Positions 970-8,116 of a stretch of 8,147 nt of DNA are shown here, one piece after another. The notes under the pieces are model-generated. The model made no database searches and had not been told where the DNA came from. It worked only from the letters and a program-made list of their open reading frames with translations. The stretch spans positions 1 through 8,147 of the forward strand of contig JAEZEN010000529.1 of the NCBI GenBank assembly GCA_023433185.1. The letters run 5' to 3'. The translations under genes and the position numbers were made by a program. How positions within the stretch are numbered: position 1 is the stretch's first letter; each line of letters begins with the position of its first letter. This DNA comes from Pseudomonadota bacterium (GTDB taxonomy: Bacteria; Pseudomonadota; Alphaproteobacteria; Rhizobiales; Kaistiaceae).

Positions 970-1254
970 ATGTCTTCGACATTCGACGTGGTCGCGAAGG
1001 TCATTTCCGAAACCAGCGAGATTCCGATCGAGCAGATTACGCCGGAGTCGCACGCCATCGACGATCTCGGCATCGACAGCCTCGATTTCCTCGACATCGT
1101 CTTCGCGCTCGACAAGAAGTTCGGCATCAAGATCCCGCTCGAGTCCTGGACCGAAGAGGTCAACGAGGGGCGCGCCAAGGTCGAGGACTACTTCGTCCTC
1201 AAGAATCTCTGCGCCCGCATCGACGAACTGGTGGCCGCGAAGAAGGCGACCTGA
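970..1254 (+). CDS. acpXL: AcpXL, acyl carrier protein for very-long-chain fatty acid of lipid A
   Basis: A 94-residue acidic carrier protein. Its Ser37 in the motif [14 protein letters not shown] (31-44) is the expected site for the 4'-phosphopantetheine arm. The following stretch FGIKIPLE plus WTEEVNEG, and the conserved [13 protein letters not shown] near the C-terminus, separate AcpXL from housekeeping AcpP and match rhizobial AcpXL closely. In rhizobia AcpXL carries the growing 27-hydroxyoctacosanoyl chain and delivers it to the lipid A acyltransferase LpxXL in the cytoplasm. The ATG at 970 gives the normal family length of about 92-94 residues. An in-frame ATG at 844 would add 42 residues with no family resemblance. 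AAAGGGA lies 13 nt upstream, a slightly long spacing. It is the first gene of the operon, 9 nt before fabZXL. The call is firm from the signature and the cluster. Confidence 0.96.
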
Positions 1255-1263
1255 TCGACAGCC

Positions 1264-1731
1264 ATGCGCCTCGAATATTTCGACATGATCGACTCGGTCG
1301 ATGTTTTCGACGTGGCAGGCGGCCACGTCGAAACGACGTCGCGGGTTCCCGACCACAGCCCGGTGTTCGAGGGCCATTTCCCGGGCTATCCGCTGGTGCC
1401 TGGCGTCCTGCTCCTCGAGACGATGAACCACACCTCCGGCTATCTCATGCTCGGCATGAACGAGTTCAATCGGCTGCCGTTCTTCGTCGGTGCGAAGAAG
1501 GTCAAGATCCGCAAGTTCGTGACGCCCGGGATGGTGATGAAGACGACCTGCGACCTCCTGCACGAGGGTTCGGGCTTTTGCATCACCAACAATGTCATTA
1601 GGGTCGACGGCGAGGTCATCGCCGACGCTGAACTGACCATGATGGTCATGGAATTTCCGAGCCCCGAGCTTCCCAGGCTCATCACCGAGAGGGCCCGGCA
1701 ACACGGCGTCGCCTTGGGGCTGAACGCCTGA
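1264..1731 (+). CDS. fabZXL: FabZ-like 3-hydroxyacyl-ACP dehydratase of the VLCFA pathway
   Basis: A 155-residue hotdog-fold dehydratase, the usual FabZ length. The motif FEGHFPGYPLVPGVLLLE (35-52) places catalytic His38 and Glu52 fourteen residues apart, as in FabZ. The central FFVGAKKVKIRKFVTPG matches the FabZ strand that follows the active-site helix. It should dehydrate 3-hydroxyacyl-AcpXL to the trans-2-enoyl thioester during chain elongation in the cytoplasm. It begins 9 nt after the acpXL stop codon and ends 11 nt before fabF2XL, so it is co-transcribed. No clear Shine-Dalgarno is present, and translation may depend on coupling to acpXL. The residues around the active-site helix (ETMNHTSGYL) differ from the usual E-A-x-A-Q of housekeeping FabZ, fitting a specialised substrate. 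That last point is inference. Confidence 0.93.
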   Translation: MRLEYFDMIDSVDVFDVAGGHVETTSRVPDHSPVFEGHFPGYPLVPGVLLLETMNHTSGYLMLGMNEFNRLPFFVGAKKVKIRKFVTPGMVMKTTCDLLHEGSGFCITNNVIRVDGEVIADAELTMMVMEFPSPELPRLITERARQHGVALGLNA

Positions 1732-1742
1732 CGGGAACCGGA

Positions 1743-2951
1743 ATGGCACGCGAGGTCTGGATTACCGGGATCGGCCTGACCTCGTCGCTGGGCGAGGGCA
1801 CGGATGCGCATTGGCAGGCGATGGCGCTGGCCGATCCCCCGCGGCCGGTCGTCGACGCGACGAACTTTGCGCCCTATCCCATCCACCCGATGGTCCCGCT
1901 CGACTTCGAGAAGCAGATTCCGAAGGGCGGCGACCGGCGCCAGATGGAGAACTGGCAGCGGGTCGGCACCTACACCGCCGGCCTCGCCCTCGACGATGCC
2001 GGCATCGCCGGCAACATGGACATCCTCGCCAACACCAACATGGTGGTCGCGGCGGCCGGCGGCGAACGCGACCTGATGGTCGACCAGACCGTGCTCGAGG
2101 GCGTCGGCAGCGCGCCGCAGCCGGCGGAGTTCATCAACGAGCGGCTTTCCAACGACCTCCGTCCGACGCTGTTTCTCGCACAGCTCCCCAACCTCGTCGC
2201 CGGCAACATCGCGATCGTCCACAAGGTCACGGGCTCGTCGCGCACCTTCATGGGCGAGGAGCTTGCCGCGGTCAGTGCGGTCGAGGTCGCGGCGCGCCGC
2301 ATCGCCGCCGACCAGGGCGACGTCTTCCTCGTCGGCGGCGCCGTGCTCGCCGAGCGCAAGGACGTGCTCCTCGTGCTCGCCGGCGCCGGCTGGGCGTGGC
2401 ACGGCGAGCCGCTCTCGGTCTGGGCACGGCCCGAGCTGGGCGGCGGCACGATGATGGGCTCGGTCGGCGCGTTCCTCGTGCTCGAAGCGCGCGAGCATGC
2501 CGAGAAGCGCGGCAAGACGCCCTATGCCCGCCTCGGCACGGTGCTGTCGGGCCGCACCCGGCGCGAGCCCGGGCAGGCCGCGGCCCTTGCCTCCGAGCAG
2601 TTCGCGGCGCTCCGCAGGGAAGCCGGCTCCGCCACCCTCGCGGTCCTCTCCGGGGCGAACGGCCTCGCCCGGACCACGCGCGAGGAGCGCGACTGGCTCG
2701 CCCGCCTCAGGGCCGAAGGTGCGGTCGATACCGTCCGCGCAGTCCCGAACATGCTCGGCAACACCGTCGAGGCCGCCTTCCCGTCGATGGTCGCACTGGC
2801 GGCGCTGTCGCTGTCGCGCGGCGCGTTCTACCGCAGCGCCGACGACACCGGCTTCGAGCCCGCGGGGATCGAGGCGCCGGAAGCCATCCTGGTCAATTCG
2901 TGGGGGTCCTGGCGGGGCGAAGGCATGGGACTGGTGCTGCCCGCGACGTGA
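1743..2951 (+). CDS. fabF2XL: FabF2XL, KAS-like protein lacking the catalytic triad
   Basis: A 402-residue thiolase-fold protein that starts like a condensing enzyme (VWITGIGLTSSLGEG, 5-19) and ends with a KAS-like strand (ILVNSWGSWRGEG, 382-394). By motif alignment the nucleophilic Cys is replaced by Met170 (SSRTFMGEE), the first active-site His by Asn306 (SGANGLARTT, in place of the usual AHGT) and the second by Asn340 (NMLGNTVEAA, in place of GH). The protein contains no cysteine at all, so a Cys-dependent condensation is impossible. The glycine-rich C-terminal loop GFGG is also altered. The cluster position matches rhizobial fabF2XL. It begins 11 nt after fabZXL and ends 17 nt before fabF1XL. 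The likely role is a structural or chain-length-setting partner of FabF1XL, as with KS-beta in type II polyketide synthases. Identity is firm from position; the partner role is inference. Confidence 0.9.
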   Translation: MAREVWITGIGLTSSLGEGTDAHWQAMALADPPRPVVDATNFAPYPIHPMVPLDFEKQIPKGGDRRQMENWQRVGTYTAGLALDDAGIAGNMDILANTNMVVAAAGGERDLMVDQTVLEGVGSAPQPAEFINERLSNDLRPTLFLAQLPNLVAGNIAIVHKVTGSSRTFMGEELAAVSAVEVAARRIAADQGDVFLVGGAVLAERKDVLLVLAGAGWAWHGEPLSVWARPELGGGTMMGSVGAFLVLEAREHAEKRGKTPYARLGTVLSGRTRREPGQAAALASEQFAALRREAGSATLAVLSGANGLARTTREERDWLARLRAEGAVDTVRAVPNMLGNTVEAAFPSMVALAALSLSRGAFYRSADDTGFEPAGIEAPEAILVNSWGSWRGEGMGLVLPAT

Positions 2952-2956
2952 CGGGC

Positions 2957-2963
2957 AAGGAGG
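2957..2963 (+). promoter_or_regulatory. Strong Shine-Dalgarno of fabF1XL
   Basis: AAGGAGG lies 5 nt before the ATG at 2969. It is the strongest ribosome binding site in the operon and fixes the fabF1XL start. The reading frame is open far upstream, but only because it overlaps fabF2XL in another frame. Confidence 0.85.
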
Positions 2964-2968
2964 TTTCA

Positions 2969-4243
2969 ATGGTTTCGAAGGTCAGGGATTCCCGCGGCCG
3001 CCCGGTGGTCGCGATCACCGGCATGGGCGTGGTGTCCTCGCTCGGCGTCGGCCTCGACGAGAACTGGTCGGCGCTGGTCGCCGGGCGCTCGGGCATCAAG
3101 CGCATCACCCGCTTCCCGACCGAGCACCTGCGCACCACCATTGCCGGCACGATCGACTTCATCGAGGACGACAAGGGCGACCTCAAGCTCGCCATCGGCG
3201 AGATCGCCACCGACGAGGCGATCCGGATGGCGCGGATCGGTGCGCCGGGCGACTTTCCGGGCCCGCTCTTCACCGCCATCCCGCCGGTCGAGCTCGGCTG
3301 GACGGCACGGCGGCGCCTCTATGACAGCGGCGACCCGGCGATCGCCGACGCCTATGACCGGATGTGCGCCGTGGCCGAGGGCCTCAACGACCGCAGCCAG
3401 TTCGAGCGCGTGATGTACGGCTACGTCGCCGAAAAGCTCGCCGACCGCTTCGGCACCAAGGGCGCGCCGGTATCGCTGACCACCGCCTGCGCCTCGGGCG
3501 CCACCGCCATCCAGCTCGGCGTCGAGGCGATCCGCCGCGGCGAGACGCAGGCCGCCCTCTGCGTCGGTACCGACTGCTCGGTGACGGCGGAGGAGGTGGT
3601 GCGCTTCTCCCTGCTTTCGGCCCTGTCGAATTCCAACGCGGTTCCCGAGGAGGCGGCCAAGCCGTTCTCCAAGAACCGCGACCGCTTCGTCATCGCCGAG
3701 GGTGCGGCGGCGCTGGTCCTCGAGGACTACGACAGCGCGGTCGCCCGCGGCGCCACGGTGCTCGCCGTGATCCGCGGCGCGGCCGACAAGAACGACGATT
3801 TCCACCGCACCCGCTCCAAGCCCGACGGTTCGGCGGTGATCGGCGCGCTGCGCCAGACCTTCGACGATGCCGGCATGCATCCGGACCAGATCGAATACAT
3901 CAACGCCCACGGCACCGGCACGCCCGAGAACGACAAGATGGAGGCCTTCGCGCTCGAGGCGGTGTTCGGCGAACGCCTCCGCGGGGTGCCGATCAGCTCG
4001 AACAAGTCGATGATCGGCCATACCCTGACCTCGTCGGGCGCGCTGGAGGCGGTATTCTCGGTCAAGACGATGCAGAGCGGCGTGATCCCGCCGACGATCA
4101 ACTACAAGGTACCGGACCCGAGCATCGACCTCGACGTGGTGCCGAATGTGGCGCGCGCCCAGAAGGTGGGGACGGTCCTCTCCAACTCGTTCGGCTTCGG
4201 CGGGCAGAATGCCTGCGTGATCATCTCGGCCGAGCCCGCCTAG
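2969..4243 (+). CDS. fabF1XL: FabF1XL, catalytic beta-ketoacyl-ACP synthase of the VLCFA pathway
   Basis: A 424-residue KAS II-type condensing enzyme. The N-terminal VAITGMGVVSSLG (14-26) opens the thiolase fold. The nucleophile is Cys174 in SLTTACASGATAI (169-181). The two histidines are His314 (INAHGTGTPEND) and His351 (SSNKSMIGHTL), with conserved Lys346. NSFGFGGQNA (406-415) is the usual C-terminal glycine loop. It should condense malonyl-ACP with acyl-AcpXL in the cytoplasm during synthesis of the C28-type chain. The segment from about residue 62 to 165 is longer and more charged than in E. coli FabF and probably shapes the substrate pocket (inference). The ATG at 2969 has a strong ribosome binding site and sits directly before the conserved N-terminus. 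It lies 17 nt after its non-catalytic homologue fabF2XL and 27 nt before adhXL. Confidence 0.95.
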   Translation: MVSKVRDSRGRPVVAITGMGVVSSLGVGLDENWSALVAGRSGIKRITRFPTEHLRTTIAGTIDFIEDDKGDLKLAIGEIATDEAIRMARIGAPGDFPGPLFTAIPPVELGWTARRRLYDSGDPAIADAYDRMCAVAEGLNDRSQFERVMYGYVAEKLADRFGTKGAPVSLTTACASGATAIQLGVEAIRRGETQAALCVGTDCSVTAEEVVRFSLLSALSNSNAVPEEAAKPFSKNRDRFVIAEGAAALVLEDYDSAVARGATVLAVIRGAADKNDDFHRTRSKPDGSAVIGALRQTFDDAGMHPDQIEYINAHGTGTPENDKMEAFALEAVFGERLRGVPISSNKSMIGHTLTSSGALEAVFSVKTMQSGVIPPTINYKVPDPSIDLDVVPNVARAQKVGTVLSNSFGFGGQNACVIISAEPA

Positions 4244-4270: not shown

Positions 4271-5293
4271 ATGCGCGCACTCCAGCTCCTCGACAGCCGG
4301 CGGCTCGAGGTCGTCGAGCTCCCCGATCCGCCGCCGCCCGGGCCCGGCGAGGTCCAGGTCCGCATCCGCGCCGTCGCCCTCAACCACATCGACGTGTGGG
4401 GCTGGCGCGGCATGGCCTTCGCCAAGCGCAAGCTGCCGATCATCGTCGGCGTCGAGGCCGCGGGCACGATCGCTGCGGTCGGCGACGGGGTGACGGATCG
4501 GACGGTCGGCGAACAGGTGGCGCTGTTCGGCGCCGAGACCTGCGGCACCTGCCCGGCCTGCCGCGAAGGCCGGGACAACCTCTGCGTCAACGTCCAGGGC
4601 ATCCGCGGCTTCCACATCGACGGCCTCACCCGCGATGCGATCAACCTCAAGGCGCGTTTCACGATCCCCGCGCCCGGCATCCCGATCGAGGCGGCTGCCT
4701 GCGCACCGGTCACCTTCGGGACGCCCGAGCACATGCTCTTCGACAACGCCAGGCTCCGGGCCGGGCAGACGGTCCTCGTCCAGGCCGGCGGCAGCGGCAT
4801 CGGCACGGCGGCGATCCAGCTCGCCAAGGCGGTGGGCGCGACCGTGATCACCACCGTCGGCAGCGACGACAAGATCGGACCCGCGAAGGCGCTCGGCGCC
4901 GACCACGTCATCAACTACCGCGAGGAGCGCTTCGAGGGGGTGGTGCGCAAGATCACGAAGAAGGAGGGCGTCGACGTCGTCTTCGAGCATGTCGGCCCCG
5001 ACACCTTCGCCCAGAGCATGTTCTGCCTCAAGCGCGGCGGGACGCTCGTCACCTGCGGCTCCACCACCGGGATCAACTGCGAGATCAACCTCTTCCAGCT
5101 CTACCAGCAGCAGCTTCGCCTGATCGGCAGCTTCGGCTGCACGATCCGCAACCTCGCCGAGGCGCTCCGCAAGATGGCCGACGGCGTCGTGACGCCGGTC
5201 GTCGACTCCGTGATTCCGCTCGAGGGCATCCCCACGGCGCTGGAGCGGATCGAGTCGCGGAACGTCTTCGGCAAGATCATCGTGACCCTGTGA
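4271..5293 (+). CDS. adhXL: AdhXL, MDR-family oxidoreductase, likely enoyl reductase-like
   Basis: A 340-residue medium-chain dehydrogenase/reductase. The structural zinc tetrad is intact: Cys91, Cys94, Cys97 and Cys105, spaced CX2CX2CX7C. The nucleotide-binding motif is VQAGGSGIG (170-178), and Gly197-Ser198 plus Lys201 after the second strand suggest NADPH. Two usual catalytic-zinc ligands are missing: the first Cys is Asn38 (ALNHIDVW) and the His of the GHE motif is Val61 (GVEAAG). This pattern is that of quinone oxidoreductases and polyketide enoyl reductases, so reduction of trans-2-enoyl-AcpXL is more plausible than alcohol oxidation (inference). The conserved rhizobial cluster names it adhXL. 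The ATG at 4271 has AAGGGA 11 nt upstream. Its stop codon overlaps the lpxXL GTG start. Cluster membership is firm, the reaction is not proven. Confidence 0.9.
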   Translation: MRALQLLDSRRLEVVELPDPPPPGPGEVQVRIRAVALNHIDVWGWRGMAFAKRKLPIIVGVEAAGTIAAVGDGVTDRTVGEQVALFGAETCGTCPACREGRDNLCVNVQGIRGFHIDGLTRDAINLKARFTIPAPGIPIEAAACAPVTFGTPEHMLFDNARLRAGQTVLVQAGGSGIGTAAIQLAKAVGATVITTVGSDDKIGPAKALGADHVINYREERFEGVVRKITKKEGVDVVFEHVGPDTFAQSMFCLKRGGTLVTCGSTTGINCEINLFQLYQQQLRLIGSFGCTIRNLAEALRKMADGVVTPVVDSVIPLEGIPTALERIESRNVFGKIIVTL

Positions 5294-6402
5294 GCGATCC
5301 GACCGCGGAGATGGACCCGCCGGTCACCGGCGCCACGCCGGCTGCGGATGCGCCGCGAAAGCGCAGGCGCAAGCAGCGTCGCAAGCTCTCGCAGAGTTCG
5401 ATCGAGCGCATCGAATCCCAGCGCAGCCGGAAGGCCGTTCGCGAGGCGCGGAAGCAGCGCCTCCTCGGCCGACTGGGACGGTCCGCCTTCGTCGAGCGCC
5501 GGCTCGCCGGCGGCATGCGCTTCATCTTCCGCTGGTCGGAGGCCGTCGGCCGCGAGCGCGCCACCCGCACCGCCGCCCGCGTGGCTCGCACCCTGTCGCG
5601 CTTCAGCCGCGAGAATGCGCTGGCCGCCGCCAACCTCGCCGCTGCCTATCCGGAGAAGAGCCAGGCGGAGCGCGACCGCATCCTTGCCGGCGTCTGGGAG
5701 AATCTCGGCCGGCAGACTGTCGAGTACGCCTTCCTCCAGGAGCTGGTCGACGGCTTCGACCCCGAGCGGCCCGGCGAGGGGCCGATCGAGGCGGTCGGCC
5801 TCGAACATCTCGTCGCGATCCGCGACAGCGGCAAGCCGGCGATCCTCTTCGGCGCCCATATCGGCAATTTCGAGCTGACGCCGGCGCTCGGCGCGAAGCT
5901 CGGCCTGCCGGTCACCGCGCTCTACCGGCCGCCGACCAATCCCCACATCGCCGCCGAGATCGAGAAGCGGCGGAACAACTACCTCGGCCGCATGGTGGTC
6001 TCCGGCCGCGGCGCCGCCCTCGAAGTGGCCGATGCGCTGAAGCGTGGCCGCCATATCGGCGTCCTGATCGACCAGCGGATCACCGAGGGCCAGATCATCC
6101 CGTTCTTCAACCGGCCGTCGCTCTCCAACCCGCTGGTCGGCGTGATGGCGCGCATCTTCAACTGCCCGGTCCACGGCGGCTATGCCGTGCGCCTGCCCGA
6201 CGGACGCTTTCGCGCGGTGATGACCCCACCGCTCGAACTGCCGCGCGACGAACGCGGCAAGATCGACGTCGAGGGCGCGAACCTCGTCGTCCACGCCATG
6301 GTCGAATCCTGGATCCGGGAATACCCCGACCAGTGGCTCTGGCTGCACGACCGCTGGCGCTGGGGCCGGAAGGGCCGCCAGAAGGCCAAGGGCAAGGCCT
6401 GA
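5290..6402 (+). CDS. lpxXL: LpxXL, very-long-chain acyltransferase of lipid A, with basic N-terminal extension
   Basis: A 370-residue member of the LpxL/HtrB lysophospholipid acyltransferase family. The catalytic HX4E motif is His190 to Glu195 (GAHIGNFE). LYRPPTNPHI (211-220), GVLIDQRITEG (257-267) and the C-terminal PDQWLWLHDRWRW (346-358) are family blocks. In rhizobia LpxXL moves the very-long-chain acyl group from AcpXL to lipid A at the cytoplasmic face of the inner membrane. The GTG at 5290 is chosen because it overlaps the adhXL stop as GTGA, typical of translational coupling. An in-frame ATG at 5311 would remove 7 residues; neither has a clear ribosome binding site. Residues 22-64 are very rich in Lys and Arg (for example RKRRRKQRRK), and I see no N-terminal membrane helix. 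The enzyme is roughly 60 residues longer than typical family members. The family call is firm, and the start is uncertain. Confidence 0.93.
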   Translation: MSDPTAEMDPPVTGATPAADAPRKRRRKQRRKLSQSSIERIESQRSRKAVREARKQRLLGRLGRSAFVERRLAGGMRFIFRWSEAVGRERATRTAARVARTLSRFSRENALAAANLAAAYPEKSQAERDRILAGVWENLGRQTVEYAFLQELVDGFDPERPGEGPIEAVGLEHLVAIRDSGKPAILFGAHIGNFELTPALGAKLGLPVTALYRPPTNPHIAAEIEKRRNNYLGRMVVSGRGAALEVADALKRGRHIGVLIDQRITEGQIIPFFNRPSLSNPLVGVMARIFNCPVHGGYAVRLPDGRFRAVMTPPLELPRDERGKIDVEGANLVVHAMVESWIREYPDQWLWLHDRWRWGRKGRQKAKGKA

Positions 6403-7130: not shown

Positions 7131-7182
7131 GCCGCCGAGCCGGACTAGGGGGAGCGCCGGCGGGACTTTGGTTCCCATCCGT

Positions 7183-7186
7183 GGAG
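7183..7186 (+). promoter_or_regulatory. Shine-Dalgarno of the protease gene
   Basis: GGAG lies 6 nt before the ATG at 7193. It overlaps an in-frame GTG at 7181, which argues that the GTG is part of the ribosome binding region and not the start. Confidence 0.7.
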
Positions 7187-7192
7187 ACATTC

Positions 7193-8116
7193 ATGACGAA
7201 GGCAACTGCATTCTCGAAGGGGCCGGCGCTGCTCCTCGGTCTCGCACTGGCGGTCGGGGCGACGTTCGCGCATGCCGCAACGACCGAAGAGTTCATCGTC
7301 GGCGGCTCGCCCGCGGCGGAGGGCGCGTGGCCGTGGCAGGTCCGCCTGCTCGATTCCAAGAACCCGCAGTCCGGCTTCTGCGGCGGCTCGCTGATCTCCA
7401 ACCAGTGGGTGCTGACCGCGGCGCACTGCGTCGTGCAGGGCCGGACGACCATGCCGAGTGTCGTCATAGGTTACGGCAGCACGGAGCAGAGCAAGCTCAC
7501 GCTCGTCGACAGCGCGATGATCATCGTCCATCCGGACTACATGAAGGAGAACCACGCGGACCTCGCGCTGGTGAAGCTCGCCGAGCCGCTGAGCGACGCC
7601 GAGTGGATCGAGATCGCCGACGCGGCCAAGGAGCAGGAGCTCGTCACGCCCGGCGCCACGCTCACCGTGACCGGCTGGGGCGCGCTGTGGGACTTCGCGG
7701 GCTTCGAGGAAGCGCTCTACAGCCGCAACAACGGCAGCACCGCGGTCGATACCTACAAGCTCCTCACGGCCAACGCCCTCGTCTCGCCGGACAAGCTGCA
7801 CCAGGTCGAGATCGAGCTCATCACCAACGAGGAATGCGCCGCCGCCTACCAGGCCTATAGCGAGGCGATCCAGCAGAACCTCACCATCGCCGACACCGAG
7901 CTCTGCGCCGGCAGCCCGGCGGGCGCCAAGGACTCGTGCTACGGCGACTCGGGCGGACCGCTGGTCGTGGCCGACGAGAGCGGCAAGTACTACCAGGTGG
8001 GCGTCGTGAGCTGGGGCAGCCAGTGCGGCAACCCGGTCCTCCCCGGCGTCTACAACAAGCTCGCCCGCTTCGAGGACCTCCTGTGGGATGCCCGCAGCCA
8101 GGCGACGCTGCGCTGA
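7193..8116 (+). CDS. Secreted trypsin-like S1 family serine protease
   Basis: A 307-residue exported endopeptidase of the chymotrypsin fold. A Sec signal peptide covers residues 1-28 (Lys3 and Lys9, hydrophobic core 11-25, cleavage after AHA). A six-residue propeptide (ATTEEF) precedes the mature N-terminus IVGG (35-38). The catalytic triad is His78 (TAAHC), Asp123 (HADLALVKL) and Ser253 (GDSGGP). Asp247, six residues before Ser253 ([11 protein letters not shown]), corresponds to Asp189 of trypsin, with Gly at the 216 and 226 positions (SWGSQ and PGVY), so cleavage after Arg or Lys is expected. Six cysteines (63, 79, 215, 238, 249, 278) match the three core disulfides. A loop of about 20 extra residues (roughly 164-200) follows GWG in the autolysis-loop region. 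The residue before IVGG is Phe, so activation is not by trypsin-like cleavage. The ATG at 7193 is chosen over the GTG at 7181. Natural substrate unknown. Confidence 0.94.

Follow-up and report, generated by a model that had tools for sequence, protein, structure and literature searches.

FabF2XL, a non-catalytic ketosynthase homologue encoded beside FabF1XL in the rhizobial lipid A cluster, and the proposal of a two-subunit ketosynthase

In type II polyketide synthases a live ketosynthase (KS) gene and a dead one, that of the chain length factor (CLF), lie next to each other (actinorhodin, 1TQY; Streptomyces L164 and L165), and the locus described here has likewise a live and a dead KS gene side by side. 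Two further arrangements are close to it. In the highly reducing KS/CLF pairs, ApeO-ApeC and the Iga11-Iga12 pair of ishigamide, a KS and a non-catalytic partner elongate on an acyl carrier protein, as described in passages of PMC8358021. In AmcF-AmcG, a KS and a cyclisation factor, the partner had no known motifs, was insoluble alone and proved to be the heterodimer partner of the KS (PMC10698177, in part).

The rhizobial acpXL-lpxXL cluster for very-long-chain fatty acids (VLCFA) comprises six genes. According to sections of PMC5613085, these genes are important for symbiosis and for resistance to stress, and attempts to disrupt them in Bradyrhizobium ORS278 did not succeed, while the enzymology of C26-C30 acid synthesis for rhizobial lipid A is still unsolved. 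FabF1XL and FabF2XL have been treated as KAS II or elongation enzymes (PMC11901934, PMC5613085), and neither the word “heterodimer” nor the term “active site” appears in the main text of either paper. We found no earlier proposal of an F1-F2 heterodimer in the titles, abstracts and passages searched; subscription papers fell mostly outside this search, so that an earlier proposal is possible.

The cluster and its two ketosynthases

The window—the whole stretch of 8,147 nucleotides analysed—comes from a Bauldia-like bacterium and contains this known cluster on its forward strand, with acpXL, fabZXL, fabF2XL, fabF1XL and lpxXL side by side in the order acpXL-fabZXL-fabF2XL-fabF1XL-adh2XL-lpxXL, identical to that of an S. 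meliloti record (L166); its two KS genes correspond to fabF2XL and fabF1XL as published. The first gene, acpXL (970..1254), encodes the acyl carrier protein for the very-long-chain acid (PF00550; NCBIfam NF005079 over cut-off), and fabZXL (1264..1731) a 3-hydroxyacyl-ACP dehydratase-like protein with a FabA-like domain (PF07977), the FabZ models staying below their cut-offs. Downstream of the KS genes come adh2XL (4271..5293), the zinc-type dehydrogenase of the cluster (PF00107, PF08240), and lpxXL (5290..6402), a lipid A acyltransferase (PF03279; NF005120 over cut-off).

The 424-residue product of fabF1XL (2969..4243; PF00109, PF02801) scores over the cut-off of NF005076, not over that of TIGR03150 fabF, and has the Cys-His-His triad of an active KAS II-type enzyme: Cys174, His314 and His351. 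In our 285-row alignment the Cys174 column is Cys in 135 of 136 FabF1XL rows and X in the other one, the two His columns are His in 136/136 each, and the column of Lys346 is Lys in 136/136 FabF1XL rows against 0/139 for FabF2XL.

FabF2XL (1743..2951; 402 residues; NF005084 over cut-off, PF00109) is a homologue with the KS fold and without any Cys. The original prediction had opposed a cysteine-free FabF2XL to a FabF1XL bearing the triad, which the translations bear out, and had set Met170, Asn306 and Asn340 against Cys174, His314 and His351. These three letters are correct, but the first pairing is not: phmmer against a solved FabF, a pairwise MAFFT alignment, the 285-row and an 18-row alignment, and hhalign of the family profiles all place Glu173 opposite Cys174, and the predicted helix starts agree with this register (helix 173-189 in FabF1XL, 174-188 in FabF2XL). 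Glu173 (codon 2259-2261) closes the pseudo-active-site elbow SSRTFMGEE (residues 165-173; 2235..2261), and its column is Glu in 137 of the 139 distinct FabF2XL rows, Asp in one and a gap in one, the truncated row L161.

The loss of the first His is equally general: in the 285-row alignment none of the 139 rows has His at the His314 column, occupied by G304 in the window, and only one row has a His no more than 4 columns away. Its pairing with Asn306 depends on the register, and this Asn is not conserved (five commonest residues at the column: T 64, S 54, C 10, N 9, V 1). As for Asn340, it does face His351 in the window, but the family mostly retains this His (107/139 rows), which is lost in 32/139, the window included. 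Orthologue alignment, the check suggested with the prediction, thus upholds the Cys and first-His losses and not the second-His loss, so that the triad is not generally lost as a whole. Besides, as only 33/139 FabF2XL rows are cysteine-free, the absence of cysteine anywhere is incidental. Chance is excluded as the source of the residue pattern because the Cys column of FabF1XL and the Glu column of FabF2XL are conserved. FabF2XL does not have the triad of an active KAS II (FabF); with a fixed Glu at the Cys column and no first His it is, to judge from these alignments, a conserved, non-catalytic ketosynthase.

Pairing across genomes and patterns of conservation

Of 397 order-level genomes, 112 carry the FabF1XL family, and the FabF2XL family is present in precisely these 112. 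We counted 116 F2-then-F1 pairs on one strand, in 111 of these 112 genomes, with 13-361 nt (median 39) between the profile matches; of the 15 class-level loci that score above the family cut-off, 14 show the adjacency as well, and the other, L029, is cut off by the end of its contig. Shared distribution and adjacency of this kind are explicable by a common pathway alone. Three genomes (L174-L176) carry the pair repeated in tandem, fabZ-F2-F1-adh-F2-F1, and a Bradyrhizobium plasmid (L167) carries it with none of acpXL, fabZXL, adh and lpxXL close by.

A natural F2-F1 fusion, P0244, joins both nearly complete domains in 818 residues with 19 residues between them; it is the one clean fusion among the 35 listed matches to a joined F2-F1 query. 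P0244 lacks its first residues relative to the F2 profile and is known as a protein sequence only; no stop-free full-length match to it was found in 385 class genomes, where six long matches each have 1 or 2 stops. P0242, P0243, P0245, P0246 and P0248 cover both families and appear partly out of frame, and the other listed matches are partial or not F2-F1; we did not retain them as fusions.

The distribution of highly conserved positions differs between the two proteins. Columns conserved at 97% or more make up 27/79 of FabF2XL residues 100-178 and 28/323 of the remainder (odds ratio 5.5, p 8e-8); in FabF1XL they make up 9/76 of residues 104-179 and 102/348 of the rest (odds ratio 0.32, p 0.0014), the limits being set in both cases after viewing the alignment. 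Conservation is thus complementary, the peak of FabF2XL coinciding with the poorest region of FabF1XL. This peak includes the stretch DLRPTLFLAQLPNLVAG (residues 138-154; 2154..2205), which we propose as a partner face and in which R140, P141, T142, L145 and G154 are each present in 138/139 rows. The motif G[HQNST][ILV][STA]I is found in 134/139 FabF2XL and 0/136 FabF1XL, in 2/2 Streptomyces CLFs and ApeC, and is absent from 2/2 KS-alpha and ApeO. Among homodimer-type KSs it is present in the FabF-like L168 and absent from the FabB-like L170 and from ApeR; as these vary, the motif alone is no mark of quaternary state.

Mean-field DCA of 133 pairs (Neff 62) showed no excess of inter-protein couplings, which made up 33 of the 100 strongest where 51% would be expected, and no cluster marking an interface; so few sequences do not settle the matter in either direction. 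The FabF2XL model has low confidence in the conserved stretch (pLDDT blocks of 55-73 at residues 101-150, and 65 at 161-170), which we do not take as the sign of a partner-dependent segment, the block correlation with conservation being only -0.27. Foldseek with this model retrieved FabF chains as well as CLF chains, with the CLF of actinorhodin (1tqy_B) at rank 19; since it resembles both alike, the fold does not discriminate CLF from FabF.

A proposed two-subunit ketosynthase

We consider it probable that FabF1XL and FabF2XL are one two-subunit ketosynthase, which extends AcpXL-bound acyl chains towards the C26-C30 acids found in lipid A. The joint presence of the two genes in every genome examined that has either suggests that they act as one two-part enzyme, and the heterodimer we infer from sequence comparison is well supported, though indirectly. 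FabF2XL, KS-like in fold and without nucleophilic Cys, is encoded beside a catalytically complete KS. This was the basis of the KS/CLF analogy in the original prediction, now backed by distribution, adjacency, tandem repeats, the plasmid pair, the fusion and complementary conservation. In such an enzyme FabF1XL would do the condensation chemistry with Cys174, His314 and His351; FabF2XL, with its fixed Glu at the nucleophile position and its first catalytic His gone, would perform no condensation and would stand where an ordinary ketosynthase dimer has its second subunit. Its residues ~100-173 may be the partner face and the partner-side wall of the FabF1XL acyl pocket, and it may influence chain length. 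In A. fabrum, a fabF2XL mutant makes lipid A without VLCFA, partly restored by fabF2XL alone; the null loses all lipid A VLCFA, with no length shift (PMC11901934). Observations that speak against the pairing view include the retention of the second His in most FabF2XL and the fact that 34 of the 35 joined-query matches are not clean fusions.

That the heterodimer exists and that FabF2XL sets the C26-C30 length by shaping the end of the FabF1XL tunnel is a reading we hold tentatively, at somewhat less than even chances. In the 18-row alignment the conserved FabF2XL stretch falls on the gatekeeper region of CLFs, located at the KS/CLF interface in passages of PMC6638757, and R109, D110 and D114 are each fixed in 138/139 FabF2XL rows. 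However, the A. fabrum null loses its product entirely, and FabF2XL has conserved charged residues in the very columns where the S. lavendulae CLF has aromatics. Possibly this would be an independently evolved KS/CLF system serving a membrane lipid and not a polyketide, in which the FabF2XL wall LRPTLFLAQLxNLxAGN...SRTxxGEE, with R109/D110/D114 and Glu173, extends the FabF1XL tunnel and sets C26-C30.

Alternatively FabF2XL might work in the pathway without dimerising with FabF1XL, perhaps as a homodimer that docks AcpXL or chaperones the system. Its requirement, adjacency and shared distribution would suit any obligate pathway protein, and coevolution, on few sequences, showed no interface; on the other hand one clean fusion, the repeats and plasmid carriage of the pair alone, and a conservation highest in FabF2XL ahead of the pseudo-nucleophile, where that of FabF1XL is lowest, make this unlikely. 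Some other catalysis, such as decarboxylation of malonyl-AcpXL to a primer via Glu173 and the second His, would accord with the frequency of both residues and has a precedent in the CLF glutamine, whose decarboxylating role is stated in part of PMC6638757; we regard it as very improbable given that FabF2XL has neither the first His nor the Lys and that the second His is lost in about a quarter of the rows, including the window. A decaying pseudogene would explain the missing catalytic residues but is already contradicted by the conserved columns of residues 100-178 and by the mutants without VLCFA, and can be dismissed.

If the heterodimer is real, both genes have so far been annotated as stand-alone synthases, and FabF1XL alone in vitro would fail or mislead. 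The chain-length-factor solution would then have evolved separately for a structural membrane lipid, and chain-length control would become a question of two-gene exchange.

Comparison with known ketosynthase pairs

Compared with FabF/KAS II, FabF2XL is without the Cys and the first His, and FabF1XL without the FabF-like motif. Compared with type II KS/CLF, the Glu of FabF2XL at the Cys column is matched in one Streptomyces CLF, the other having Gln, and AntE has Asp there (PMC6638757, in part). In both systems the FabF-like motif is in the dead subunit and not in the live one. By contrast the KS/CLF gene order is reversed relative to F2-F1, and the two Streptomyces CLFs keep the Lys and lost both His, whereas in FabF2XL the Lys is lost and the second His is kept in most rows. 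KSQ-type decarboxylases have Gln at the Cys position and both His; FabF2XL, with Glu and no first His, is not of this type.

ApeC retains the FabF-like motif (GNLTI), as FabF2XL does; unlike FabF2XL it has one thiolase domain, according to passages of PMC8358021. In three FabF2XL proteins tested at E up to 10 we found PF00109 only and no PF13723, the family of ApeC, and the profile match between the two is not significant (probability 2.3%), which rules out ApeC as close kin. AmcF-AmcG performs one elongation and a cyclisation, against the iterative elongation to C26-C30 proposed for FabF1XL/FabF2XL.

In a KS tree sampling 22 F1 and 22 F2 of 136 shared keys and only 2 CLFs, a branch with 98/97 support separates FabF2XL and ApeC from F1, KS-alpha, CLF, FabF and other KSs, ApeC being a long branch of unsure place. 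KS-alpha is the sister group of the Streptomyces CLFs (100/98) and FabF2XL stands elsewhere, outside the clade that Streptomyces-type CLF descent would imply; the likeness of FabF2XL to CLFs thus looks convergent.

Gene content of the window and pairing of the two ketosynthase genes

In the window, acpXL (970-1254), fabZXL (1264-1731), fabF2XL (1743-2951), fabF1XL (2969-4243), a zinc-type dehydrogenase gene (4271-5293) and lpxXL (5290-6402) all lie on the forward strand, in an order identical to that of the S. meliloti record L166. This six-gene cluster is already known; at issue here is the role of its two ketosynthase (KS) genes. Upstream of acpXL, and divergent from it, lies a gene for a membrane protein whose catalytic domain is of the heparan-alpha-glucosaminide N-acetyltransferase type (PF07786; 2-727, reverse strand). 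Past lpxXL, at the downstream end of the lipid cluster, the forward strand carries genes for an MmcB-like DNA repair protein (PF06319, 6533-7042) and then for a trypsin-like serine protease, encoded in full (PF00089, E 1.9e-52, 7181-8116). The nearest titled relatives of the window FabF2XL, at 86-87%, belong to Bauldia MAGs. As for L166 (CP090106.1), it is titled plasmid pSymB, yet it measures 3.7 Mb and carries cobalamin genes beside the cluster for very-long-chain fatty acids (VLCFA): the replicon label may be wrong.

The NCBIfam profiles NF005084 (FabF2XL) and NF005076 (FabF1XL) each matched 112 of 397 genomes from the Bauldia litoralis order, in both cases the same 112. We found 116 same-strand pairs, FabF2XL then FabF1XL, in 111 of these 112 genomes, the profile matches of a pair lying 13-361 nt apart (median 39); in the exception, G416, the matches lie on separate contigs. 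At class level 15/289 genomes passed the cut-off and FabF1XL adjoins FabF2XL at 14 of the 15 loci, the other one (L029) ending at a contig edge; at phylum level 35/398 passed, and none of 14 named controls. Judged from sequence, the pairing is obligate. The pair also occurs on a Bradyrhizobium plasmid typed conjugative (L167:3757-6278), between methyltransferase and response-regulator genes; the 11 kb inspected there contain nothing that matches acpXL, fabZXL, adh or lpxXL. Three genomes (L174-L176) repeat it in tandem, fabZ-F2-F1-adh-F2-F1; the second pair, beyond adh, could for instance add a second chain length.

The two proteins joined as one query (E up to 1e-30) returned 35 proteins. One, P0244 (818 aa, 3 member sequences), is a FabF2XL-FabF1XL fusion with 19 residues between domains, spanning 12-401 of 402 profile positions for FabF2XL and 7-423 of 427 for FabF1XL; it scores above the NF005084 cut-off and below that of NF005076, keeps GEE in its first half and has TACATG, NAHGT and NKSMIGHT in the second. 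The remaining large matches appear incomplete or shifted in frame, and 385 class genomes yielded no equivalent free of stops: the fusion is one case, not a pattern. Besides, P0270, P0274 (25 member sequences) and P0276 are single proteins with a KS first, then a second KS-like or PF13723 half, and the FabF2XL profile matches two distinct KS-like chains (B and C) of PDB entry 9s5h, which may be a further KS pair.

Loss of catalytic residues in FabF2XL

We gathered 148 FabF2XL and 146 FabF1XL sequences, 139 and 136 once identical ones were dropped; the 139 comprise 108 order-level and 13 class-level sequences, 15 from loci of the window-relative search, 2 from plasmids and that of the window. 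The original prediction, a complete triad in FabF1XL beside its loss in FabF2XL, stands in part. Cys174, His314 and His351 are indeed present in the window FabF1XL, and their columns hold C in 135/136 rows (X in one), H in 136/136 and H in 136/136. The window FabF2XL has no cysteine and carries M170, N306 and N340, as described. However, five alignments place Glu173, not Met170, opposite the catalytic Cys, a register that fits the helix starts predicted for both proteins. In FabF2XL this column is E in 137 rows, D in one and a gap in one (the truncated L161); that of the first His is G in 117, A in 15, S in 5, D in one and a gap in one. Losses of Cys and first His are thus general, but the second His is kept in 107/139 rows, the other 32, among them the window and its Bauldia/Kaistia relatives, having N, Q, T, A, S or Y. 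Likewise only 33/139 rows lack any cysteine; from these counts neither Cys-freeness nor Met170, Asn306 or Asn340 is essential to FabF2XL. The column of Lys346, K in 136/136 FabF1XL, has no Lys in any of the 139 FabF2XL rows. By its residues, FabF2XL has lost catalysis. Around the site, the S166, R167, T168, G171, E172 and E173 columns each hold a single residue in 137 or 138 of 139 rows, and the strict pattern SSRTxxGE[ED] occurs in 105.

Conservation and the putative partner face

With region limits chosen after the alignment was viewed, columns at least 97% conserved number 27/79 in FabF2XL residues 100-178 vs 28/323 elsewhere, and 9/76 in the matching FabF1XL residues 104-179 vs 102/348 elsewhere. 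Directly before the nucleophile, the motif G[HQNST][ILV][STA]I is found in 134/139 FabF2XL and 0/136 FabF1XL. It is also common to FabF, two Streptomyces chain length factors (CLFs) and ApeC, and missing from two KS-alphas and ApeO, so that each of the three kinds of pair compared has it in the dead member and lacks it in the live one. As the FabB-like KS L170 and another KS, ApeR, also lack it, the motif is no more than suggestive. In E. coli FabF, the acyl pocket is lined by two residues from the partner subunit, Phe133 and Thr137; they align with FabF2XL Leu143 (133/139) and Gln147 (134/139), which may occupy equivalent positions.

A proposed heterodimeric ketosynthase for lipid A

According to PMC11901934, an A. 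fabrum C58 fabF2XL insertion mutant makes lipid A without VLCFA, which plasmid-borne fabF2XL partly restores. As the two genes share a transcript there, with fabF2XL ahead of fabF1XL (same source), polarity may add to the phenotype; on the other hand, the rescue by fabF2XL alone speaks for an effect of losing this gene itself. In Bradyrhizobium ORS278, acpXL, fabZXL, fabF1XL and fabF2XL are reported to be refractory to mutation (PMC5613085), and in S. meliloti mutants in fabF1XL, fabF2XL and the other cluster genes are reported to grow at a disadvantage in the medium of that study (PMC5539429).

The best reading, we infer, is a FabF1XL-FabF2XL complex: FabF1XL would condense within a heterodimeric ketosynthase, of which FabF2XL would be the obligate non-catalytic half. 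Against it count the second His retained in most FabF2XL and the coevolution test, in which 133 pairs (Neff 62, few sequences) gave no inter-protein signal. Of the interpretation first offered, the dead KS obligately beside a live one is supported by sequence; control of chain length by FabF2XL is a hypothesis. The reading put forward here, which may have been proposed before, is that of a KS/CLF-like pair acting in lipid A fatty-acid elongation, whose likeness to KS/CLF is probably convergent.
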